Below, piece by piece: positions 28,879 to 58,107 of a DNA stretch of 59,581 nt. The stretch lies in contig JAABRE010000023.1 of NCBI GenBank assembly GCA_011391125.1, positions 1 through 59,581 of the forward strand, in the 5' to 3' direction. Made by a program: the position numbers and the translations under genes. The DNA is from Synechococcales cyanobacterium S06. GTDB lineage: Bacteria > Cyanobacteriota > Cyanobacteriia > Cyanobacteriales > JAABRE01. The notes under the pieces are model-generated. The model saw only the letters and a list, made by a program, of their open reading frames with translations. It was not told the origin of the DNA and ran no database searches. Positions within the stretch are counted from its first letter, which is position 1, and each line of letters starts with the position of its first letter.

Positions 28879-29050
28879 CGGTGATTTTTTTGATTTGTGT
28901 GATTTTTTAGATTTACTGTAATCAAGAGAAAATAATCACACAAATCATAATAATCAGCCAAAATCATAGTTAAGATTTTTTAGATTTACTGTAATCAAGA
29001 GAAAATAATCACACAAATCATAACAATGATAGTAAAAAATCACAATAATC
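28879..29050. repeat. Palindromic, AATC-phased repeats upstream of the GxxExxY gene
   Basis: A 50-bp direct repeat (28901-28950 and 28974-29023) contains GATTTTTTAGATTTACTG and AATAATCACACAAATCA. Upstream, TGATTTGTGTGATTTTTT is the inverted counterpart, so the whole block is a large interrupted palindrome. AATC or its complement recurs roughly every 9-11 bases. A third related copy follows the gene at 29511-29575. Confidence 0.8.
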
Positions 29051-33925: not shown

Positions 33926-34101
33926 TGGGACTGAGGGGAATGGGGGATTGGGGTATTGGGGTATTGGGGGATTGGGGGAATGGGGTATTGGGGTATTGGG
34001 GTATTGGGGGAATGGGGGAATGGGGGAATGGGGGAATGGGGGAATGGGGTATTGGGGTATTGGGGTATTGGGGTATTGGGGTATTGGGGTATTGGGGGAA
34101 C
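33926..34101 (+). repeat. G-rich octamer array (GGGGTATT / GGGGGAAT)
   Basis: About 20 tandem 8-base units of two variants arranged in blocks. The four-G tracts at fixed spacing on the plus strand are a strong G-quadruplex pattern. Frames across it translate as Gly-Trp-rich low complexity and are not genes. Confidence 0.92.
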
Positions 34102-34110
34102 GATATTCTT

Positions 34111-34254
34111 AACTCCCTAACTCCCTAACTCCCTAACTCCCTAACTCCCTAACTCCCTAACTCCCTAACTCCCTAACTCCCTAACTCCCTAACTCCCTAA
34201 CTCCCTAACTCCCTAACTCCCTAACTCCCTAACTCCCTAACTCCCTACCTCCCC
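34111..34254 (-). repeat. AACTCCCT octamer array
   Basis: Seventeen near-perfect AACTCCCT units, 9 bases after the G-rich array. On the minus strand this reads GGGAGTTA repeats, so the two arrays place G-tracts on opposite strands back to back. They lie between convergent tolC and ferredoxin genes. Confidence 0.95.
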
Positions 34255-48838: not shown

Positions 48839-50326
48839 ATGAGTAATAGGTTATTTTATGGAGATAATTTGGAGGTTTTGCGACGTTATATTAAGGATGA
48901 ATCTGTGGATTTGTGTTACATAGATCCACCTTTTAATTCTAAGCGTAATTATAACCAAATTTATAATAATATTGGTCAAGAAGATAAGGCACAGGCCCAA
49001 GCTTTTGTTGATACTTGGACTTGGGATGATCGCGCTAATCAAGGTTTAGCGGAAATTCAGGAAAATTATTTAGGTCATTTTACGGCTAAAAGTATTGCTT
49101 TAATTAGTGGCTTAATTAATGTTTTAGGTAAGGATAGTTTGTTGGCCTATTTAGTGGGAATGACTTTAAGAATTGCTGAAATTCATCGCGTTTTAAAACC
49201 GACGGGGAGTTTTTATTTACATTGCGATCGTAATGCAAGTCATTATTTAAAGTTAGTTTTAGATACTATTTTTTGTTCCCAACGTGGTGAATTTAGAAAT
49301 GAAATAGTTTGGTGTTATCGCAAATGGAATATAAAACAACCTCAATTTCCTAGCAATCATGATACGATTTTTTTCTATACAAAATCCAGTAAAAATACTT
49401 TTAATACTCTTTATTTACCAAAGTCTAATAAGTCTTCTGGTAAGGGGAAAAAAATACAAAGTATTGTCGGAGAAGATGGTAAACGCAAGTCTATTTATTT
49501 AGATGAAGTTTCAGAAGGTACACCAACTCCCGATTGGTGGGAAATAAGTATTATTAATCCCATGGCCAAGGAAAGATTAGGTTATCCAACCCAAAAACCA
49601 GAGGCACTTTTAGAGCGTATTATTAAAGCTAGTTCTAATGAAAATGACGTTATTTTAGATGCTTTTTTGGGTGGAGGAACTACTCTTTCTATTGCACAAA
49701 GATTAAATAGACAATGGATAGGAATTGATATAACTTATCAGAGTATTGGCATAACTTTAAAACGTTTACAAGATAGTTTTGGTGAAGAAATCTTAGATAA
49801 AATTCAGTTAAGTGGTATTCCGAAAGATGTCGAAAGTGCGATCGCCCTTTCTCTGAAAAAAGATGACAGAACGCGCAAAGAATTTGAAACTTGGGCGGTT
49901 TTAACCTATTCTAATAATCGCGCTATTATTAATGATAAAAAAGGGAAAGATCAAGGAATAGATGGCCTTGCTTATTTTCAAGGAGAAAATAATGAGACAG
50001 AAAAGATTATTTTACAGGTAAAATCTGGTAAGGTTGGAGCTAAAGATATTCGCGATTTGCAAGGTGTTTTAACTTTAGAAAATGGGGCGATCGGAATTTT
50101 TATTACTCTACAACCTCCCACTAAAGATATGATAAAAACGGCGAAAAGTGCCGGTATTTATCAGAATAAATATATGAGTCAACCTGTTGACAAAATCCAA
50201 ATTATTACCATTGAGGAAATGTTAGAACAACAAAAAAGATTAGATATTAGAATGACTTTTGAAGTGTTAAAATCCGCTCCTCAACAACAGCAAATTAAAG
50301 CAGATCAAATGAGATTAGAACTGTAG
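48839..50326 (+). CDS. Beta-class DNA methyltransferase fused to an Mrr-like nuclease domain, copy 1
   Basis: 495 residues from the Met at 48839 (MSNRLFYGDNLEVLRRYI). Methyltransferase motif IV DPPF is in DLCYIDPPFNSKRNY. A variable target-recognition segment covers about residues 145-245, then motif X/I in YPTQKPEALLERII and DAFLGGGTTLS. The C-terminal nuclease has the PD-(D/E)XK pattern: ETWAVLTYSN, GKDQGIDGLAYF and ILQVKSGKVG. This is a type IIG-like single-chain restriction-modification enzyme. Copy 2 starts at 51142. Upstream codons in the longer frame come from a GCGCAAAG repeat and are excluded. Confidence 0.88.
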   Translation: MSNRLFYGDNLEVLRRYIKDESVDLCYIDPPFNSKRNYNQIYNNIGQEDKAQAQAFVDTWTWDDRANQGLAEIQENYLGHFTAKSIALISGLINVLGKDSLLAYLVGMTLRIAEIHRVLKPTGSFYLHCDRNASHYLKLVLDTIFCSQRGEFRNEIVWCYRKWNIKQPQFPSNHDTIFFYTKSSKNTFNTLYLPKSNKSSGKGKKIQSIVGEDGKRKSIYLDEVSEGTPTPDWWEISIINPMAKERLGYPTQKPEALLERIIKASSNENDVILDAFLGGGTTLSIAQRLNRQWIGIDITYQSIGITLKRLQDSFGEEILDKIQLSGIPKDVESAIALSLKKDDRTRKEFETWAVLTYSNNRAIINDKKGKDQGIDGLAYFQGENNETEKIILQVKSGKVGAKDIRDLQGVLTLENGAIGIFITLQPPTKDMIKTAKSAGIYQNKYMSQPVDKIQIITIEEMLEQQKRLDIRMTFEVLKSAPQQQQIKADQMRLEL

Positions 50327-50433
50327 GGATGTAAAGCTTGCACTCTAGTTGGTAGGGTGGGCAATTAATAATTAATTAGTAAAGAAGTATAACTTATGAT
50401 TAATTGCCTACCTTAGGAGAACATCTTTAATAA

Positions 50434-50697
50434 TTAAGAAAAAAACTTTTCATAATCATCATGACTACCAATCCAAATCCATGTCACAGTATCATCTTGA
50501 AAAATACCAATTGCTCGGTAATTTTTCGTAATTCTCACTGACCAAATATTTTCTTGACTATTAATACATTTAAAGTGTAAAGACGGATGAAATGGATTAT
50601 CTTTCCAGAAAATGTAAGTTTTTCTTGCTTTTTGTCTAATGACAGAATTAAGTTGTTGATAAGCATTCCAAAAAGAAGGTAAAGTGGCAGATTTCAT
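50434..50697 (-). CDS. RelE/ParE-type toxin
   Basis: 87 residues, RelE/ParE fold: FWNAYQQLNSVIRQKARKTY, then HPSLHFKCI, VRITKNYRAIG and IWIGSHDDYEKFF. This group includes mRNA interferases and gyrase inhibitors. Its start overlaps the antitoxin stop by 4 bp (50694-50697), the normal tight coupling. It lies between the two methyltransferase copies on the opposite strand. Confidence 0.83.
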   Translation of the reverse strand: MKSATLPSFWNAYQQLNSVIRQKARKTYIFWKDNPFHPSLHFKCINSQENIWSVRITKNYRAIGIFQDDTVTWIWIGSHDDYEKFFS

Positions 50698-50924
50698 AAC
50701 TGATTATAATCCATTGGTGTGGCTTTTCCTTCGGCTATTTCTTGTTTAGCCTGTTTAGCCATACTAATTAATTTATTTTGAGTTTTATTGACTAAACTTT
50801 TCCATTTCATCTCCTCTTGTAAAGTTTCAATATAATCAATTAAATGGTCAACTACCTGTTCTTGAAGGGAATCTGGTAAAGATTCCATCATTTTAGTAAC
50901 TGTGACAATCTTTTCTGATGACAT
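50694..50924 (-). CDS. Antitoxin partner of the RelE-type toxin
   Basis: 76 residues, all-helical and charged: MSSEKIVTVTKMMESLPDSL then VVDHLIDYIETLQEEMKW and the tail AKQAKQEIAEGKATPMDYNQ. It lies directly upstream of and overlaps the toxin. It should neutralise the toxin and repress the pair. The family is not named with certainty; the position gives the call. Confidence 0.78.
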   Translation of the reverse strand: MSSEKIVTVTKMMESLPDSLQEQVVDHLIDYIETLQEEMKWKSLVNKTQNKLISMAKQAKQEIAEGKATPMDYNQL

Positions 50925-51141
50925 CTGATTAATTTCTCTCGTTTTCGTTTATTCTTTTATTATAAACCTCGCACCACTTCACGTATCCCCAAGGAGATCG
51001 CCTCCTTTAACCGTTGGTTGTGGAGAATAGTTGCTAGGGTGTGTCACACAAATAATTTATAGTTATCAATTAGAGATTCTCAAATGTGACGCACCATACT
51101 GATATAATATGACCAATTCAAGTTAAGTGTCAAGGTGGGTT

Positions 51142-52623
51142 ATGAATAAGTTATTTTATGGAGATAATTTGGAGGTTTTGCGATGTTATATTAAGGATGA
51201 ATCTGTGGATTTGTGTTACATAGATCCACCTTTTAATTCTAAGCGTAATTATAACCAAATTTATAATAATATTGGTCAAGAAGATAAGGCACAGGCCCAA
51301 GCTTTTGTTGATACTTGGACTTGGGATGATCGCGCTAATCAAGGTTTAGCGGAAATTCAGGAAAATTATTTAGGTCATTTTACGGGTCAATCTATTGATT
51401 TAATTACCGGTTTAATTAAGGTTTTAAAAAAGGGTTCTTTGTTAGCTTATTTGGTGGGAATGACTTTAAGAATTGCGGAAATTCATCGCGTTTTAAAACC
51501 GACGGGAAGTTTCTATTTACATTGTGATCCCACTGCTTCACATTATTTAAAGTTAGTTTTAGATGCTATTTTTTGCTCTCAAGGAGGTGATTTTTTAAAT
51601 GAAATTGCCTGGTGTTATTCAGGAGGAGGACGACCAAAAACAGATTTTGCTAAAAAACACGATGTTATTTTTAGATATTCTAAAAGTCGAAATTATATTT
51701 TTAATTCTGATGATATTAGAGTAGAATATAATCTTGATCTTAGTAAATATAATTCCCCTAAAGCTTGGGGAATTCATAAAGGTACTCAAAAAATTTATCA
51801 GCCTAATCCTAATGGTAAAATTCCCGAAGATTGGTGGGTTATTAGTCCTATTAATTCTCAAGCAAAAGAACGTTTAGGTTATCCAACACAAAAACCCGAA
51901 GCACTTTTAGAACGTATTATTAAAGCTAGTTCTAATGAAAATGACGTTATTTTAGATGCTTTTTTGGGTGGAGGAACTACTCTTTCTATTGCACAAAGAT
52001 TGAAAAGACAATGGATAGGAATTGATCTAACTTATCAGAGTATTGGCATAACTTTAAAACGTTTACAAGATAGTTTTGGTGAAGAAATCTTAGATAAAAT
52101 TCAGTTAAGTGGTATTCCGAAAGATGTCGAAAGTGCGATCGCCCTTTCTCTGAAAAAAGATGACAGAACGCGCAAAGAATTTGAAACTTGGGCGGTTTTA
52201 ACCTATTCTAATAATCGCGCTATTATTAATGATAAAAAAGGGAAAGACCAAGGAATAGATGGACTAGCTTATTTTCAAGGAGAAAATAATGAGACAGAAA
52301 AAATAATATTACAAGTTAAATCTGGTAAGGTTGGAGCTAAAGATATTCGGGATTTGCAAGGTGTTTTAACTTTAGAAAATGGGGCGATCGGAATTTTTAT
52401 TACTCTACAACCTCCTACTAAAGATATGGTAAAAACGGCGAAAAGTGCCGGTATTTATCAGAATAAATATATGAGTCAATCTGTTGATAAAATCCAACTT
52501 ATTACCATTGAGGAAATGTTAGAACAGCAAAAAAGATTAGATATTAGAATGACTTTTGAAGTGTTAAAATCAGCCGAAAAACAACAGCAAATTAACGTAA
52601 ATCAAATGAAATTAGAACTTTAA
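51142..52623 (+). CDS. Beta-class DNA methyltransferase fused to an Mrr-like nuclease domain, copy 2
   Basis: 493 residues from the ATG at 51142 (MNKLFYGDNLEVLRCYIKDE). It is almost identical to copy 1 over the first 80 residues (DPPF motif) and from the YPTQKPEALLERII segment to the end (motif I, nuclease GIDG and LQVKSGK). The middle is different: from SQGGDFLNEIAWCYSGGGRP to IPEDWWVISPIN the target-recognition segment is unrelated to copy 1. It should therefore recognise a different DNA site with the same catalytic parts. Both copies appear intact. They arose by tandem duplication with exchange of the specificity segment. Confidence 0.88.
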   Translation: MNKLFYGDNLEVLRCYIKDESVDLCYIDPPFNSKRNYNQIYNNIGQEDKAQAQAFVDTWTWDDRANQGLAEIQENYLGHFTGQSIDLITGLIKVLKKGSLLAYLVGMTLRIAEIHRVLKPTGSFYLHCDPTASHYLKLVLDAIFCSQGGDFLNEIAWCYSGGGRPKTDFAKKHDVIFRYSKSRNYIFNSDDIRVEYNLDLSKYNSPKAWGIHKGTQKIYQPNPNGKIPEDWWVISPINSQAKERLGYPTQKPEALLERIIKASSNENDVILDAFLGGGTTLSIAQRLKRQWIGIDLTYQSIGITLKRLQDSFGEEILDKIQLSGIPKDVESAIALSLKKDDRTRKEFETWAVLTYSNNRAIINDKKGKDQGIDGLAYFQGENNETEKIILQVKSGKVGAKDIRDLQGVLTLENGAIGIFITLQPPTKDMVKTAKSAGIYQNKYMSQSVDKIQLITIEEMLEQQKRLDIRMTFEVLKSAEKQQQINVNQMKLEL

Positions 52624-52631
52624 ACCGTCTA

Positions 52632-52874
52632 TTAGGCAACTTCAAAAGATTGACCAATAGGAGTTAAATCTTCAGTTTCTTGGGTTTCTAATTTAACTTT
52701 AATTGACTCAAACTTTCTGATAATATCTACCTGATAATAACGCTCTCCACAATTTTGACAAACTAAAGCATTTACTTTTAATGTGGCAGTATTATTGCCA
52801 CCTTTAATGATTTCTGTTACTTTTTGTTCTAATAAAATTCCTTGACAAAATACACATTTATCCAGAGGAAGCAT
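52632..52874 (-). CDS. YgiT-type zinc finger protein (antitoxin-like)
   Basis: 80 residues with two CxxC pairs: KCVFCQGIL and VCQNCGERYYQ. It is the zinc-binding half typical of MqsA/YgiT antitoxins, lacking the HTH domain. Its usual partner in cyanobacteria is a DUF4258 toxin encoded just upstream, and remains of such a gene do lie at 52942-53322. The partner is broken, so this is now an orphan antitoxin. Its C-terminus is close to the copy 2 methyltransferase stop (8 bp). Confidence 0.85.
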   Translation of the reverse strand: MLPLDKCVFCQGILLEQKVTEIIKGGNNTATLKVNALVCQNCGERYYQVDIIRKFESIKVKLETQETEDLTPIGQSFEVA

Positions 52875-52941
52875 AATTATTAATCTCCTTATTATTAAAT
52901 ATTTATTTTGATAATTTTACTTAGGTTGTTTTAGTTATCTA

Positions 52942-53322
52942 TTATTTTAGATATACAGTAATTAATACAGCATAACCTGTATTTTCATATAGCATTTTTA
53001 GTTGATATTTTGCTTTTTTTTTCCCCCTCTCCCTTTGGGATGAGGGGGTTAGGGGGTGAGGGTATATAACACTTAATCAGAAAATGCTATAATATCCCCA
53101 AACACTATGAATTGGTTCACCTTTTTGATTATTGCCATAAATTAAACAACTAGCTCCTCTGTCATCATCTGGATAAGCTTCAATTATCTCTCCTTTAATT
53201 ACAGAAAAATTAATTTCATCTATTAATAGATTATCATTTTCAGCCTCTTCTTTAGCATGACGAGAAACAATGACACAATTATATTTAATTGCTAAAATAA
53301 TATCATTAATCTTAAATTTCTT
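52942..53322 (-). pseudogene. DUF4258 toxin gene interrupted by MITE-D and lacking a start codon
   Basis: The minus strand reads KFKINDIILAIKYNCVIVSR then HAKEEAENDN, GEIIEAYPDDDRGASCLIYG and PIHSVWGYY, then enters MITE-D and stops. Beyond the element the frame resumes with ENTGYAVLITVYLK and TAA at 52942. Deleting the element and one TA gives an uninterrupted DUF4258 C-terminus (WGYYENTGYAVLITVY). The 5' end has no in-frame ATG, GTG or TTG and runs into a hicA remnant. The toxin is dead twice over, next to its intact YgiT partner. Confidence 0.8.
52988..53091. mobile_element. MITE-D (104 bp including TA duplication)
   Basis: Perfect 11-bp ends TATAGCATTTT and AAAATGCTATA. The inside has a TTTAGTTGATATTTTGC segment and a C-rich motif CTCCCTTTGGGATGAGGGG. 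It is inserted in a DUF4258 gene; precise removal of 100 bp plus TA restores the frame, so the target site is TA as for MITE-A. A partial relative lies at about 39421-39480. Confidence 0.82.
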
Positions 53323-53356
53323 TAGGTGTAACTCTAGGTAATTTAGGTATTTTCAA
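53312..53356 (-). pseudogene. hicA remnant (14 codons)
   Basis: A TTG overlapping the end of hicB opens a frame reading KIPKLPRVTPKEI then TAA. This matches the usual first residues of HicA toxins next to a HicB of this kind. The rest of hicA is gone and the sequence continues as the DUF4258 remnant, so a deletion or recombination joined the two toxin genes. Confidence 0.55.
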
Positions 53357-53576
53357 CCTCAAATGTAGTAATTAAACGAGGAGATAAAGGAGGTAAGGTA
53401 AATTCCTCTACATATAATTCTGTTGCTTCTTTAAGGTTAGCTAAAGCAAGTTCCATGGTTTCTCCTTGACTTGCGACTCCTACTTCTGGACATTCAGCTA
53501 CATAAACATCATCTTCCCAATATAAAATAGCTGTTAAAGTTTTAGTTTTTTTGACATTTTTTGCTGTTACTATCAT
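53343..53576 (-). CDS. hicB: HicB-family antitoxin, orphan
   Basis: 77 residues, RNase H-like HicB fold: TAILYWEDDVYVAECPEVGV and QGETMELALANLKEATELYV, ending LITTFEVENT. The HicA partner normally follows directly; here only a 14-codon remnant does. It is divergent from an intact hicBA pair starting 71 bp away, so cross-talk with that pair is possible. Confidence 0.83.
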   Translation of the reverse strand: MIVTAKNVKKTKTLTAILYWEDDVYVAECPEVGVASQGETMELALANLKEATELYVEEFTLPPLSPRLITTFEVENT

Positions 53577-53646: not shown

Positions 53647-53853
53647 ATGAGACAAGTAATTATTTATCCTGGAGAAAATGGTTATTGGGTTGCTCAATGT
53701 CCGAGTTTACCTCCTTGTATTAGTCAAGGAAAAACTAGAGAAGAAGCGATCGCCAATATCCAAGAAGCTATTGAACTTTATTTAGAAATTCTTACAGAAG
53801 AAGGTCGTACAATTCCTGAAGATAAGGTTGAAACTATTTTATTAACTGTATGA
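53647..53853 (+). CDS. hicB: HicB-family antitoxin
   Basis: 68 residues: VIIYPGENGYWVAQCPSLPP and SQGKTREEAIANIQEAIELY. A partial RNase H-like HicB fold without an added HTH domain. Overlaps hicA by 4 bp (ATGA), showing coupled translation. Together they form a complete type II toxin-antitoxin pair. Confidence 0.88.
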   Translation: MRQVIIYPGENGYWVAQCPSLPPCISQGKTREEAIANIQEAIELYLEILTEEGRTIPEDKVETILLTV

Positions 53854-54074
53854 GTAAATTACCTTTAATTTCGGGAAAAGATTGCATAAAAGCACTCACG
53901 AAAATAGGTTTTTATGTGAGACGACAAAGAGGAAGTCATATTATTTTACGTCGAGAAGAACCTTTTGGAGAGTTAGTTATTCCCGCTCATAAAGAACTTG
54001 ATAAAGGAACTTTACGAGCTATCATTCGTCAAGCGGATTTAGAAGTAAATGAATTTATTAAACTATTAAAATAA
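53850..54074 (+). CDS. hicA: HicA-family mRNA interferase toxin
   Basis: 74 residues with the dsRBD-like HicA fold. The catalytic histidine is in RRQRGSHIILRRE, with ISGKDCIKALTKIGF before it and VIPAHKELDKGTLRAIIRQA after. It cleaves mRNA when free of HicB. Full length and apparently active. Confidence 0.9.
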   Translation: MSKLPLISGKDCIKALTKIGFYVRRQRGSHIILRREEPFGELVIPAHKELDKGTLRAIIRQADLEVNEFIKLLK

Positions 54075-54149: not shown

Positions 54150-55172
54150 ATGAATACTAATTATTATCCGACAGATTCTTTAAAAAATGGTACATGGTTT
54201 AAACTAATTTGTGGGGCCAGTTTCCAACATTTACCCGCCATAAAAACCCTTGCTTTAGCTTATACTTTAGCTGGAGTAGATTGCCTTGATGTGGCTGCTG
54301 ATCCTGCGGTAATTACTGCTACAAAAGAAGGCATAAATTTAGCTGATTTATTTAAAAATGAAGCGCAAAAAAGGGGGTTTTTAGTATTAGGAAAACCCTT
54401 ATTAATGGTCAGTTTTAATGATGGTGAAGATCCCCATTTTCGGAAAGCTCAATTTGACCCGAATTTGTGTCCCCCTGAATGCGATCGCCCCTGTGAAAAT
54501 ATCTGTCCTGCTAACGCAATTAATCACTCTGGAGTCATCGAAAATCGTTGCTATGGTTGTGGTCGTTGTGTGCCTATTTGCCCTTTAAATTTAATTTACA
54601 CTCGGTCCTACGTTTCGACTCCTGAAACCATCGCTCCGTTAATTTTAAACCAGGGGATTGAGGCGATCGAAATTCATACCCAAGTCGGCCATGAAACCGA
54701 TTTTCAAAGATTATGGCAGAAAATTTCACCTTATACAAAATACCTCAAAGTTTTAGCCATTAGCTGTCAGGATGATCCCAAATTATTGGACTATTTACAC
54801 TTTTTAAAAGACTTGATTTTACCCCTTTCCTGTGAATTAGTTTGGCAAACTGACGGAAGACCCATGAGTGGCGATATTGGCCGCGGTACGACCAAAGCCG
54901 CAGTTAATTTGGCTCAAAAATTCATTAACGCCAAATTACCCGGAGCAATTCAGTTGGCCGGTGGTACAAATGAGCATACAGTCGCTAAACTAAAAACCAT
55001 GGGCATACGCAACGACATTGCTGGAATCGCCTACGGTAGTTATGCGCGTTCACTTTTAAATCCTATTATTGAACAACTAGAAAGCATGAATCAGCCACTA
55101 GAAGAAAACCCCGATTTACTTTGGCAAGCTGTAACAATTATTTCACCTTTAGTTAAACAAATTAAATTATAG
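54150..55172 (+). CDS. ldpA: Light-dependent period protein LdpA, iron-sulfur clock-input protein
   Basis: 340 residues from the Met at 54150 (MNTNYYPTDSLKNGTWFKLI). Earlier in-frame codons lie in a repeat. Two 4Fe-4S clusters are indicated by LCPPECDRPCENICPANAIN and NRCYGCGRCVPICPLN. The C-terminal part is the LdpA domain (RPMSGDIGRGTTKAA, QLAGGTNEHTV). In Synechococcus elongatus LdpA senses redox state and tunes circadian period with light. The last codons and the TAG stop are supplied by the end of MITE-A, and the preceding 68 bp are repeated at 56116. Confidence 0.9.
   Translation: MNTNYYPTDSLKNGTWFKLICGASFQHLPAIKTLALAYTLAGVDCLDVAADPAVITATKEGINLADLFKNEAQKRGFLVLGKPLLMVSFNDGEDPHFRKAQFDPNLCPPECDRPCENICPANAINHSGVIENRCYGCGRCVPICPLNLIYTRSYVSTPETIAPLILNQGIEAIEIHTQVGHETDFQRLWQKISPYTKYLKVLAISCQDDPKLLDYLHFLKDLILPLSCELVWQTDGRPMSGDIGRGTTKAAVNLAQKFINAKLPGAIQLAGGTNEHTVAKLKTMGIRNDIAGIAYGSYARSLLNPIIEQLESMNQPLEENPDLLWQAVTIISPLVKQIKL
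55099..55166 (+). repeat. 68-bp direct repeat, left copy (inside the ldpA 3' end)
   Basis: Starts TAGAAGAAAACCCCGATTTA and ends GTTAAACAAATTAAA. It is identical to 56116-56183. The two copies enclose MITE-A copy 2 and a toxin-antitoxin pair. Confidence 0.95.
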
Positions 55173-55295
55173 TGATTCCAATTAAGATTAAAACAGTTGA
55201 AAAATAGGTTCGTAGTTGCGCTTTAGCGCTTCTTAGGACTAAAGTCCAACAACAAACTAAAAACTTTTGTTTAATTTTTATTTGGAATTACTATA
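55168..55295 (+). mobile_element. MITE-A, copy 2 (128 bp including TA duplication)
   Basis: Identical, in reverse orientation, to 272-399. Inserted at a TA inside the ldpA termination codon region: before insertion the frame would have read ATT AAA TTA TGA. It now provides the ldpA stop codon TAG. Confidence 0.9.
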
Positions 55296-55354
55296 TGATG
55301 TTACCAATTAACAATTATACTAAATTAGGTATAATTAATTTCAAAAGGTGATGA

Positions 55355-55696
55355 CTGATAAAAGAATTTACAAAGATTGGTACATCAAAAAATGATTTAA
55401 CTTGTTTTCCAGAAGATGCTAAACGTAAAGCGGGTTTTCAATTAAGAATAGTTCAAAAAGGTGGACAACCAGATGATTTTAAGCAAATGTCGGTTATTGG
55501 TAAAGGTGTAAAAGAAATCAGAGTTTGGACAAAAAATACCTATCGTATTTTTTATGTTGCTGAATGTTCAGAGGCCATTTATGTGCTTCATGTTTTTGAG
55601 AAAAAAACCCAAAAAACCAATAAAAAAGATCTAGAATTAGGAAAAAAACGTTATCAACAAATGATTGAATTGAGAAAAGAACAGGAGTTTAACTAA
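55355..55696 (+). CDS. Phage Gp49/DUF891-like RelE-family toxin, apparent CTG start
   Basis: 113 residues if translation starts at CTG 55355: IKEFTKIGTSKNDLTCFPED, GFQLRIVQKGGQPDDFKQMS, VWTKNTYRIFYVAECSEAIY and LHVFEKKTQKTNKKDLELG. This is the Gp49-like HigB/RelE family, with the full expected length. No ATG, GTG or TTG precedes Met 45 in frame. AAGGTGA lies just before the CTG, so CTG initiation is plausible; otherwise only a 69-residue fragment from 55487 is made. Its stop overlaps the antitoxin ATG by one base. Confidence 0.75.
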   Translation: MIKEFTKIGTSKNDLTCFPEDAKRKAGFQLRIVQKGGQPDDFKQMSVIGKGVKEIRVWTKNTYRIFYVAECSEAIYVLHVFEKKTQKTNKKDLELGKKRYQQMIELRKEQEFN

Positions 55697-55992
55697 TGAT
55701 TATTGCTAACAATGTTAATGTTATTCGTGGCCATGATAATATTTTTGAAGATTTAGGTTTTGATAGTGCAGAAGCTCTGAATTTGAAAATTAGAGCTGAT
55801 TTAATGTTAGAATTGCGCTCCTTTATTTCCAGTCAAGGATGGACACAACAACAAGCAGCGAATTTTTTTCAAGAAACTCAACCCAGAATTAGTAATTTGA
55901 TGAAGGGTGACATTAATCGTTTTAGCATTGATAAATTGATAAATATGTTAGGGAAAACTGGCAAGCAAATTAAAGTAGAAATTAATAATTAA
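55696..55992 (+). CDS. Xre-family antitoxin (HTH)
   Basis: 98 residues with a helix-turn-helix: LMLELRSFISSQGWTQQQAA, NFFQETQPRISNLMKGDINR and FSIDKLINMLGKTGKQI. The COG5606-type antitoxin that follows Gp49-like toxins (toxin-first order, as in higBA). It should repress its own operon. Confidence 0.88.
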   Translation: MIIANNVNVIRGHDNIFEDLGFDSAEALNLKIRADLMLELRSFISSQGWTQQQAANFFQETQPRISNLMKGDINRFSIDKLINMLGKTGKQIKVEINN

Positions 55993-56049
55993 AGATAAGT
56001 ATTAAATTCAAAAGTCATGCTTTCAAAAAAAATTATTCCCCCTTTTGGC

Positions 56050-56065
56050 TAGGCTTTTAAGCCTA
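56050..56065. repeat. Small hairpin after the toxin-antitoxin pair
   Basis: Arms TAGGCTT and AAGCCTA around two bases, 58 bp after the antitoxin stop. The surrounding gap 55993-56334 otherwise holds the right copy of the 68-bp repeat and no gene. Confidence 0.5.
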
Positions 56066-56115
56066 CTTGATTGGCAACCCAAATAGTGGATAAATACCCA
56101 ATATTTTTCCTTCCT

Positions 56116-56183
56116 TAGAAGAAAACCCCGATTTACTTTGGCAAGCTGTAACAATTATTTCACCTTTAGTTAAACAAATTAAA
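56116..56183 (+). repeat. 68-bp direct repeat, right copy
   Basis: Matches 55099-55166 exactly. In frame it continues as IKAK and a TAA stop, a natural-looking ldpA C-terminus, so this may be the original gene end, displaced by insertion of the block at 55167-56115. Confidence 0.92.
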
Positions 56184-56334
56184 GCAAAATAAAAAAGGAA
56201 ATCAAAAATTAGGAATTATTAATGAGATCGCTTTTTAAATTGTTAAAATATAAGTGAGGGAAAAATTTTGCCTTATTTTGACATCACAAAAATCCCAAAG
56301 TGCGGCCCACAAACTTGGTAATAAAAAACATTTA

Positions 56335-58107
56335 ATGCAAGAAATTTTAATGCAAGAAAAAATACCCGCTCACCGAATCGAAATTACCGATGATCTCAAT
56401 CAACTACTTGAGATTTTGCCTCGCCAAATTAGAAGCCACATTGAACAACATCCAAAAAAAGACACCTTAATTGAGGTGGTTTTGGATTTGGGAAGATTAC
56501 CCGAAGCGAGATTTCCTAACGAAGAATCGTATTTGGGCGAAACCGTCGTCACTAAAGAGGATATCCAACATTGTGTTGACAGGGTGGGAATGTTTAGCGG
56601 TGACAATCGCGCCGGAATTGAGCGCACTTTACACCGTATTAGTGCGATGCGCAACCGTGCTGGGGAAATCATTGGCTTAACTTGTCGTATCGGTCGATCA
56701 GTCTTCGGTACAATTTTAATGATTCGGGAGTTGGTGGAAACAGGCAAGTCAATTTTACTTTTAGGCCGCCCCGGGGTGGGAAAAACGACTGCTTTACGGG
56801 AAATTGCGCGAGTTTTAGCCGATGATTTGCATAAACGGGTGGTTATCATTGATACATCTAATGAAATCGCCGGCGATGGCGATATTCCTCACCCAGCCAT
56901 CGGTAGAGCGCGCCGAATGCAGGTGGCTCGGCCCGAGTTGCAGCATCACGTCATGATTGAAGCTGTCGAAAATCATATGCCCGAAGTGATTGTAATTGAT
57001 GAAATCGGTACGGAATTGGAGGCTTTAGCGGCGAGAACCATTGCGGAAAGGGGCGTACAATTAGTTGGTACTGCCCACGGTAATCAAATTGAGAATCTGA
57101 TTAAAAATCCCACATTGTCGGATTTGGTGGGGGGCATTCAAGCAGTGACTTTGGGGGATGATGAAGCCCGTCGCAGAGGTTCTCAGAAGACTGTTTTAGA
57201 GCGGAAAGCTCCGCCTACTTTTGCGATCGCCGTGGAAATGTTGGAACGCCAAAAATGGGTGGTTCATGAAGATGTGGCCAGCACAGTTGATCAATTATTG
57301 CGAGGAAGAACACCCGTATTACAAATCAGAACCGTGAGCGATGATGGCACCGTCACGATTAGCGAAGAAGTACCAGATGAAGCCTTCTCCAGTACCTTGG
57401 CTAAAACCACGATCAGTGATTTACCCGATCGCCACAGTCCTTTTGGCGATCGCCCCTTTGGTTGGCGCGCGTCAGGGAAAATGACCCCTTTGGCCCATCC
57501 AGCGGCAAAAAACCGTGATTTTGAGCAAATGTTAGATAATTCGTGGTTTCAAGAAGAGGAGAAAACTGACAAAATTAGGACTCCCGGACCGAATGGGGAA
57601 GATTGGCCGGTGTATGTCTATCCTTACGGGGTAAGTCGCTCAAATTTAGAGCAGGTGATTCAATTATTGAAATTGCCCGTCGTTTTAACCAAGGATATTC
57701 ATCAAGCTGACGCAGTAGTCGCCTTGCGATCGCAGTTAAAAAATCACTCTAAATTAAGACAGATGGCTCACGGAGGCGAAATTCCCATACATCCGGTTAA
57801 ATCTAACACAATTTCCCACATTACCCGCACATTACGCCGTATTTTGGGTATGGATGACCCGAATACTCCCGAAGCAATTGACTTGAAATTGTTTACCAGA
57901 GGGGGAAATGATGATGAAATCGAAGCCTTAGAAGAAGCCCGCTTGGCTGTGGAACAGATTGTCATTCCCAAAGGGCAACCTGTGGAATTATTGCCACGTT
58001 CAGCAAAGGTGCGCAAAATGCAGCATGAATTAGTGGAGCATTATCGGTTAAATTCCGACAGTTTTGGCGATGAACCCAACCGCCGTTTGCGAATTTATCC
58101 CGCTTAA
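56335..58107 (+). CDS. ycf45: Ycf45-like AAA ATPase with R3H-type nucleic-acid-binding region
   Basis: About 590 residues from ATG 56335; a GTG at 56254 would add 27 residues and cannot be excluded. The N-terminal region (about 1-110) resembles the SpoIIIAA/Ycf45 start (DDLNQLLEILPRQIRSHIEQ). The ATPase core has Walker A in LLLGRPGVGKTTALREIA and Walker B in VIVIDEIGTELEAL. The C-terminal part includes VYVYPYGVSRSNLEQVIQ and an R3H-like basic end (VRKMQHELVEHYRLNS). Kept in cyanobacteria and some algal plastids; role unknown, possibly single-stranded nucleic acid handling. Confidence 0.87.
   Translation: MQEILMQEKIPAHRIEITDDLNQLLEILPRQIRSHIEQHPKKDTLIEVVLDLGRLPEARFPNEESYLGETVVTKEDIQHCVDRVGMFSGDNRAGIERTLHRISAMRNRAGEIIGLTCRIGRSVFGTILMIRELVETGKSILLLGRPGVGKTTALREIARVLADDLHKRVVIIDTSNEIAGDGDIPHPAIGRARRMQVARPELQHHVMIEAVENHMPEVIVIDEIGTELEALAARTIAERGVQLVGTAHGNQIENLIKNPTLSDLVGGIQAVTLGDDEARRRGSQKTVLERKAPPTFAIAVEMLERQKWVVHEDVASTVDQLLRGRTPVLQIRTVSDDGTVTISEEVPDEAFSSTLAKTTISDLPDRHSPFGDRPFGWRASGKMTPLAHPAAKNRDFEQMLDNSWFQEEEKTDKIRTPGPNGEDWPVYVYPYGVSRSNLEQVIQLLKLPVVLTKDIHQADAVVALRSQLKNHSKLRQMAHGGEIPIHPVKSNTISHITRTLRRILGMDDPNTPEAIDLKLFTRGGNDDEIEALEEARLAVEQIVIPKGQPVELLPRSAKVRKMQHELVEHYRLNSDSFGDEPNRRLRIYPA

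Follow-up and report, generated by a model that had tools for sequence, protein, structure and literature searches.

The window analysed here, a stretch of 59,581 nucleotides, carries the clock gene ldpA, followed by ycf45, its neighbour in relatives as well by synteny. The two genes are separated by an insert of 949 bp that is bounded by two copies of a 68-bp sequence and contains a Gp49/HTH_37 toxin-antitoxin gene pair together with a MITE, here named MITE-A. The features of the locus and of comparable loci are given in Table 1.

Table 1. Features of the ldpA-ycf45 locus (positions in the window) and three comparable arrangements (positions in the contigs named).
Feature	Position	Strand	Basis or remark
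ldpA, rebuilt	54150..55172	+	PF12617 E 5e-70; NF045992 equivalog above cut-off; sequence
Direct repeat copy 1, 68 bp, C-terminal codons of ldpA	55099..55166	+	repeat comparison
MITE-A, 128 bp including TA at each end, terminal inverted repeats TAGTRATTCCAA	55168..55295	+	genome copies, flanks
Promoter-like TTAACA-16-TATAAT, overlapping the inverted repeat	55308..55335	+	11/12 matches
Inverted repeat ATTATAC-N8-GTATAAT, putative antitoxin operator	55314-55335	+	also in homolog L075
Gp49 (RelE/HigB-like) toxin gene	55351..55696	+	PF05973 E 2e-24; homologs start in frame
HTH_37 (Xre-type) antitoxin gene, intact	55696..55992	+	PF13744 E 8e-23
Right-end spacer of the insert, 123 bp, no recognised feature	55993..56115	.	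no second genome copy
Direct repeat copy 2, 68 bp, displaced native ldpA end	56116..56183	+	repeat comparison
GCA AAA TAA, orphaned original ldpA last codons and stop (..QIKAK*)	56184..56192	+	sequence
ycf45, AAA ATPase with R3H domain, start codon uncertain	56254..58107	+	domain match; synteny
gltS (glutamate synthase) 3' end, 76 bp, 92%, around DUF2442 and HicB-like genes	G000:C91:2623-5095
uma2 3' end through the stop codon, 104 bp, 89%, around MazE/MazF	G000:C80:115740-116644
FtsX-type gene 5' end, 75 bp, 96%, around CopG-like antitoxin and RRXRR/HNH (IscB-type) genes	G000:C78:53464-55740 (= L329:13464-15740)

The two repeat copies are identical at 68 of 68 positions, as the original prediction had stated, run in the same direction at a spacing of 1017 bp and occur nowhere else in the 4.81 Mb assembly (168 contigs), so that the genome holds exactly two. 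Once tandem repeats and methyltransferase paralogs are set aside, the window has no other exact direct repeat of at least 25 bp except a 50-bp repeat at 28901, the copies of which lie 73 bp apart, and chance origin is no issue.

Read through copy 1, ldpA ends in AAA TTA TAG (..LVKQIKL*), with TTA TAG supplied by the edge of the insert and MITE; with the MITE removed the continuation becomes AAA TTA TGA and the protein would still end in ..QIKL*. Copy 2 continues into GCA AAA TAA, and since the resulting ..QIKAK* codons run directly into the upstream region of ycf45, copy 2 is most simply taken as the native end of the gene.

Within the insert, Gp49 and HTH_37 are adjacent in one operon, the toxin gene preceding the antitoxin gene and the antitoxin ATG overlapping the toxin stop (TAATG). 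This domain pair, gene order and overlap, together with a conserved upstream palindrome, are those of Gp49/HTH_37 (HigBA-like) type II systems; the locus departs from these systems in that its toxin gene carries a frameshift close to the 5' end. The domains and the MITE between the repeats had been recognised correctly, with the frameshift as the correction to be made to the pair. The Gp49 reading frame spans 55358-55696 and lacks ATG, GTG or TTG near its 5' end; close homologs begin MSDKPIYWIGTS with an in-frame ATG, and by comparison with them a 1-nt insertion has put the ATG at 55351 out of the Gp49 frame. In this frame no ATG occurs before 55487. The toxin is therefore probably inactive or poorly translated, although its loss is not certain because a weak in-frame CTG at 55355 might serve as a start. 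The palindrome that overlaps the promoter-like site is a likely antitoxin operator; eight promoter-like sites were found against 6.0 expected, so that the promoter match is weak by itself. No recombinase lies between the repeats, in agreement with the absence of an integrase noted earlier, and the Gp49 and HTH_37 genes and the MITE are all that was recognised there; the genome has no further copy of the pair. A hicB-hicA pair (53647-54074) lies directly upstream of ldpA, which hence has toxin-antitoxin pairs on both sides, and the minus strand at 52632-53576 carries an additional HicB-like ORF and a zinc-finger antitoxin-like ORF.

The genome contains at least 40 copies of MITE-A that are 100% identical, a count obtained by scoring 40 of 398 first-look candidates. 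It is short and non-coding, with inverted repeats, TA duplication and many near-identical copies, as in TA-target (IS630/Tc1-like) MITEs. The flanks were read for 30 copies and were found to have TA at both ends and to be otherwise varied. As the copies are identical, their flanks varied and TA present at both ends, MITE-A is young and mobile by ordinary TA-target transposition, and the identical copies represent a very recent transposition burst. At the ldpA locus it arrived later than the duplication, into a TA two bases from copy 1, and prior to this the insert measured about 823 bp. Its position at the junction is unremarkable given that the non-coding parts of the insert contain 21 TA dinucleotides. 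Capture of the pair by the MITE was rejected, as the other 29 copies with read flanks show ordinary TA sites, and is also unlikely because MITE-A sits at a single repeat edge here.

Searching contigs with LdpA matched only distant cyanobacteria. An inspection of the ldpA-ycf45 junction for an empty site had been proposed, and the order yielded about 14 relatives, members of other families throughout and hence only distant, in which the two genes are adjacent and free of the Gp49 pair. Where both ends are readable, the ldpA stop codon and the conserved GRxPEARF motif of ycf45 are separated by 91-373 bp, with one genome, G022, as the exception: its junction (L058:1-4100) contains 2.6 kb of other genes, including an MNT-HEPN-like pair. 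This pair is unrelated and has no duplicated ends, and the idea that the ldpA-ycf45 junction is a hotspot for repeat-forming insertion was rejected.

Flanking repeats were then counted at 41 loci, namely the window itself and 40 stretches, each of 10-20 kb, that surround close homologs of the pair, where repeats were accepted if they lay on the same strand, within 1.5 kb on both sides, and measured at least 30 bp at 85% identity or more. Such repeats flank 6 of the 41 homologous pairs and, of 382 pseudo-sites placed within these stretches, 2 (Fisher p 1.4e-5), or 5 of 35 pairs when the moaA loci are collapsed to one (p 6e-5); the repeat test was refined while the data were being viewed and these p-values are indicative only. 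Both control hits are one event, in which a HigB/HTH (HigBA) pair is flanked by 80 bp duplicated from the next gene, comprising its promoter and first codons. In a second Gp49 subfamily the enrichment is weaker (3/20 against 7/210 pseudo-sites), with some array or paralog effects, and among its control hits is a PIN/HTH pair enclosed by repeats of 110 bp. The gene for ribosomal protein L21, used as a control, gave flanking repeats at 0 of 25 usable loci. HicA loci were tried as a second test family and were not counted, as the repeats at 4-5 of about 25 usable loci were mostly dispersed repeats or array paralogs. In the L21 test, matches in stretches cut by a contig end are self-overlap artefacts. 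Some flanking repeats elsewhere, at L216 and several HicA loci, are likewise dispersed elements or paralog fragments.

No flanking repeat was detectable at the remaining 35 of the 41 pairs. The original prediction held that relatives with the same pair and no repeat would point to an unrelated local duplication; such pairs do exist, but their loci are different ones and the ldpA repeat derives from the target, so that insertion is not refuted. What they do indicate is that the repeat is not a part of the cassette.

Clean cases exist at an hsdM 3' end, an intergenic sequence and a moaA 3' end. In G330 the pair lies between hsdM and hsdS, and the duplicated part of the hsdM 3' end measures 66 bp (88% identity), the right copy retaining the overlap of the hsdM stop and hsdS start. 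In G132 the pair is enclosed by two copies of an intergenic sequence of 86 bp; the hsdM and the intergenic repeat each have only two copies in their genome. At seven loci, all from a single genus, the pair stands after moaA, and two of these loci have extra copies of the moaA 3' end downstream. In one of the moaA stretches (L232:443-2906) the moaA 3' end is present three times, with the Gp49 pair and two Uma2-like genes that resemble each other in between, an arrangement suggestive of tandem amplification of a unit. G246 is a weak case, since what flanks the pair there is a paralog fragment and a MITE-like element. The own genome was also surveyed for similar arrangements over 842 kb, and the gltS, uma2 and FtsX-type cases are included in Table 1; the uma2 repeats may share their history with paralogs. 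The duplicated length differs by event: 68 bp for ldpA, 66 bp for hsdM, 32-116 bp for moaA, 86 bp for the intergenic case, 76 bp for gltS and 104 bp for uma2. Identity between the repeats at the other loci is 86-96%, and the junctions of the related events have no shared core or insert ends. A separate toxin-antitoxin array was seen at L289:1135-2875, where a unit of about 100 bp recurs upstream of successive modules.

Since the kind of cassette stays the same across events that vary in target, repeat length and gene end, the duplicated sequence is part of the target and not of the cassette. The most probable reading, to which we assign a probability of roughly three in four, is that an acquired Gp49/HTH_37 cassette entered the last codons of ldpA and that the 68-bp target was copied on both sides. 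The cassette would have been gained horizontally, with ldpA and ycf45 both left usable, and the junction before insertion would have consisted of the 68 bp followed directly by GCAAAATAA. For the joining step, the likeliest route would be either a template switch or the filling-in of a break with a wide stagger: a strand would leave ldpA, copy or join the cassette and re-enter 68 bp upstream. Persistence would be restricted to events at gene ends, since duplication there keeps the gene whole. A single event of this kind, giving target-insert-target, suffices to explain the ldpA locus. The recombination-based capture of a toxin-antitoxin pair suggested at the outset is close to this reading. 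The other suggestion, that the block is the remains of a larger element, has been abandoned: nothing else lies between the repeats, and the genome has no second copy of the insert and no other occurrence of the 68 bp.

Insertion with long target duplication was reportedly described by Nobusato et al. in 2000 for restriction-modification genes of Helicobacter. The process has been reviewed (PMC3874152, PMC1643837) and likewise involves a small addiction-type unit, long direct repeats of the target (about 100 bp, variable) and no transposon ends. At ldpA, direct repeats of the target bound the insert, and their length and sequence differ between events, which recur at several unrelated gene ends. 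The known cases come from comparisons of Helicobacter strains, whereas the empty site was seen here in distant relatives only, and the payload described in them is restriction-modification, whereas here it is a type II toxin-antitoxin pair in cyanobacteria. Because the payload is Gp49/HTH_37 and not a restriction-modification system, the ldpA insert is a variant of this kind of insertion and not a plain member. No report of long target duplication with a toxin-antitoxin payload was found in the open-access literature searched. A further parallel is offered by transposed genes of Arabidopsis, in which flanking direct repeats of more than 30 bp occur in 36% vs 2% and are often host sequence that the orthologous empty site contains as well (PMC2869330); these differ in being eukaryotic, in that the repeats are often brought from the parent locus and in that the payload is not addiction modules.

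An identical target-insert-target structure would also result from a single crossover of the Campbell type, in which a circle from another strain, carrying the pair and the 3' end of ldpA, recombined homologously with ldpA. The tandem units of L232, each with a Uma2 gene and a moaA 3' end, fit recombination between such repeats, and a similar circle model has been proposed for the transposed Arabidopsis genes (PMC2869330). This scheme requires, however, that the cassette had already been joined to ldpA, and accounts for spread rather than origin; the genomes searched contain no donor, and we regard it as improbable here.

Somewhat less probable still is that the cassette was integrated at the ldpA 3' end by a recombinase of the tyrosine or serine type that either acted in trans or was lost afterwards, with the 68 bp as attL and attR. 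In tyrosine-recombinase integration of islands and phages the 3' end of the target is likewise rebuilt and the original end displaced, the repeat here occurs singly on each side, and a plasmid-like contig (L076) has a homologous pair beside a tyrosine recombinase. Against this, the 949-bp insert contains no recombinase, the 68-bp repeat is found nowhere else in the genome, and comparable events occur at unrelated targets with repeats of 32 to more than 100 bp, also at gene 5' ends, with no constant core and no common insert ends. The resemblance to integration at a gene 3' end that had been pointed out therefore holds as regards the rebuilt gene; the likeness to integrase-type events is not supported, as targets, lengths and ends vary. 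Least credible is that two unrelated events occurred, the pair arriving alone and a 68-bp copy of the ldpA end being added later upstream of ycf45 as repair filler: copy 2 can be read as a 68-bp templated insertion and IKL* and IKAK* are both plausible LdpA ends, but two hits at one junction are needed and the excess of repeats at toxin-antitoxin modules over control sites is left unexplained.

If insertion with duplication of the target is correct, the direct repeats would permit, and indeed favour, precise and scar-free deletion of the insert through their recombination, and an active toxin-antitoxin pair would select against it. Because an active pair would counter-select such repeat-driven deletion, toxin-antitoxin modules may be the usual payload. 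The structure thus predicts precise loss of the insert and suppression of this loss by an active toxin; at ldpA the protection is probably gone, because the toxin is frameshifted. How chromosomal toxin-antitoxin systems spread without transposases or integrases is a long-standing open question, and the recurrence of the arrangement around other pairs suggests a recombinase-free route. More tentatively, long target duplication at gene ends may be a general recombinase-free mode of entry of toxin-antitoxin and other addiction or defence cassettes into cyanobacterial chromosomes, in which addiction would retain an insert that can be deleted scarlessly; we consider this possible, with the odds somewhat against it. 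Duplicated gene ends around small genes also provide a simple genome signature by which recent acquisitions can be recognised in one genome, with no need of a close relative, and the recurrent pattern deserves a proper survey.

Two other repeat features were observed in the window. Two paralogous DNA methyltransferase genes at 48850-52570, about 2.3 kb apart and sharing identical blocks of up to 220 bp, are a recent gene duplication, and a perfect octamer array at 34110-34250, in which TAACTCCC is repeated about 17 times, lies beside TGGGG-type repeats at 33947-34100.
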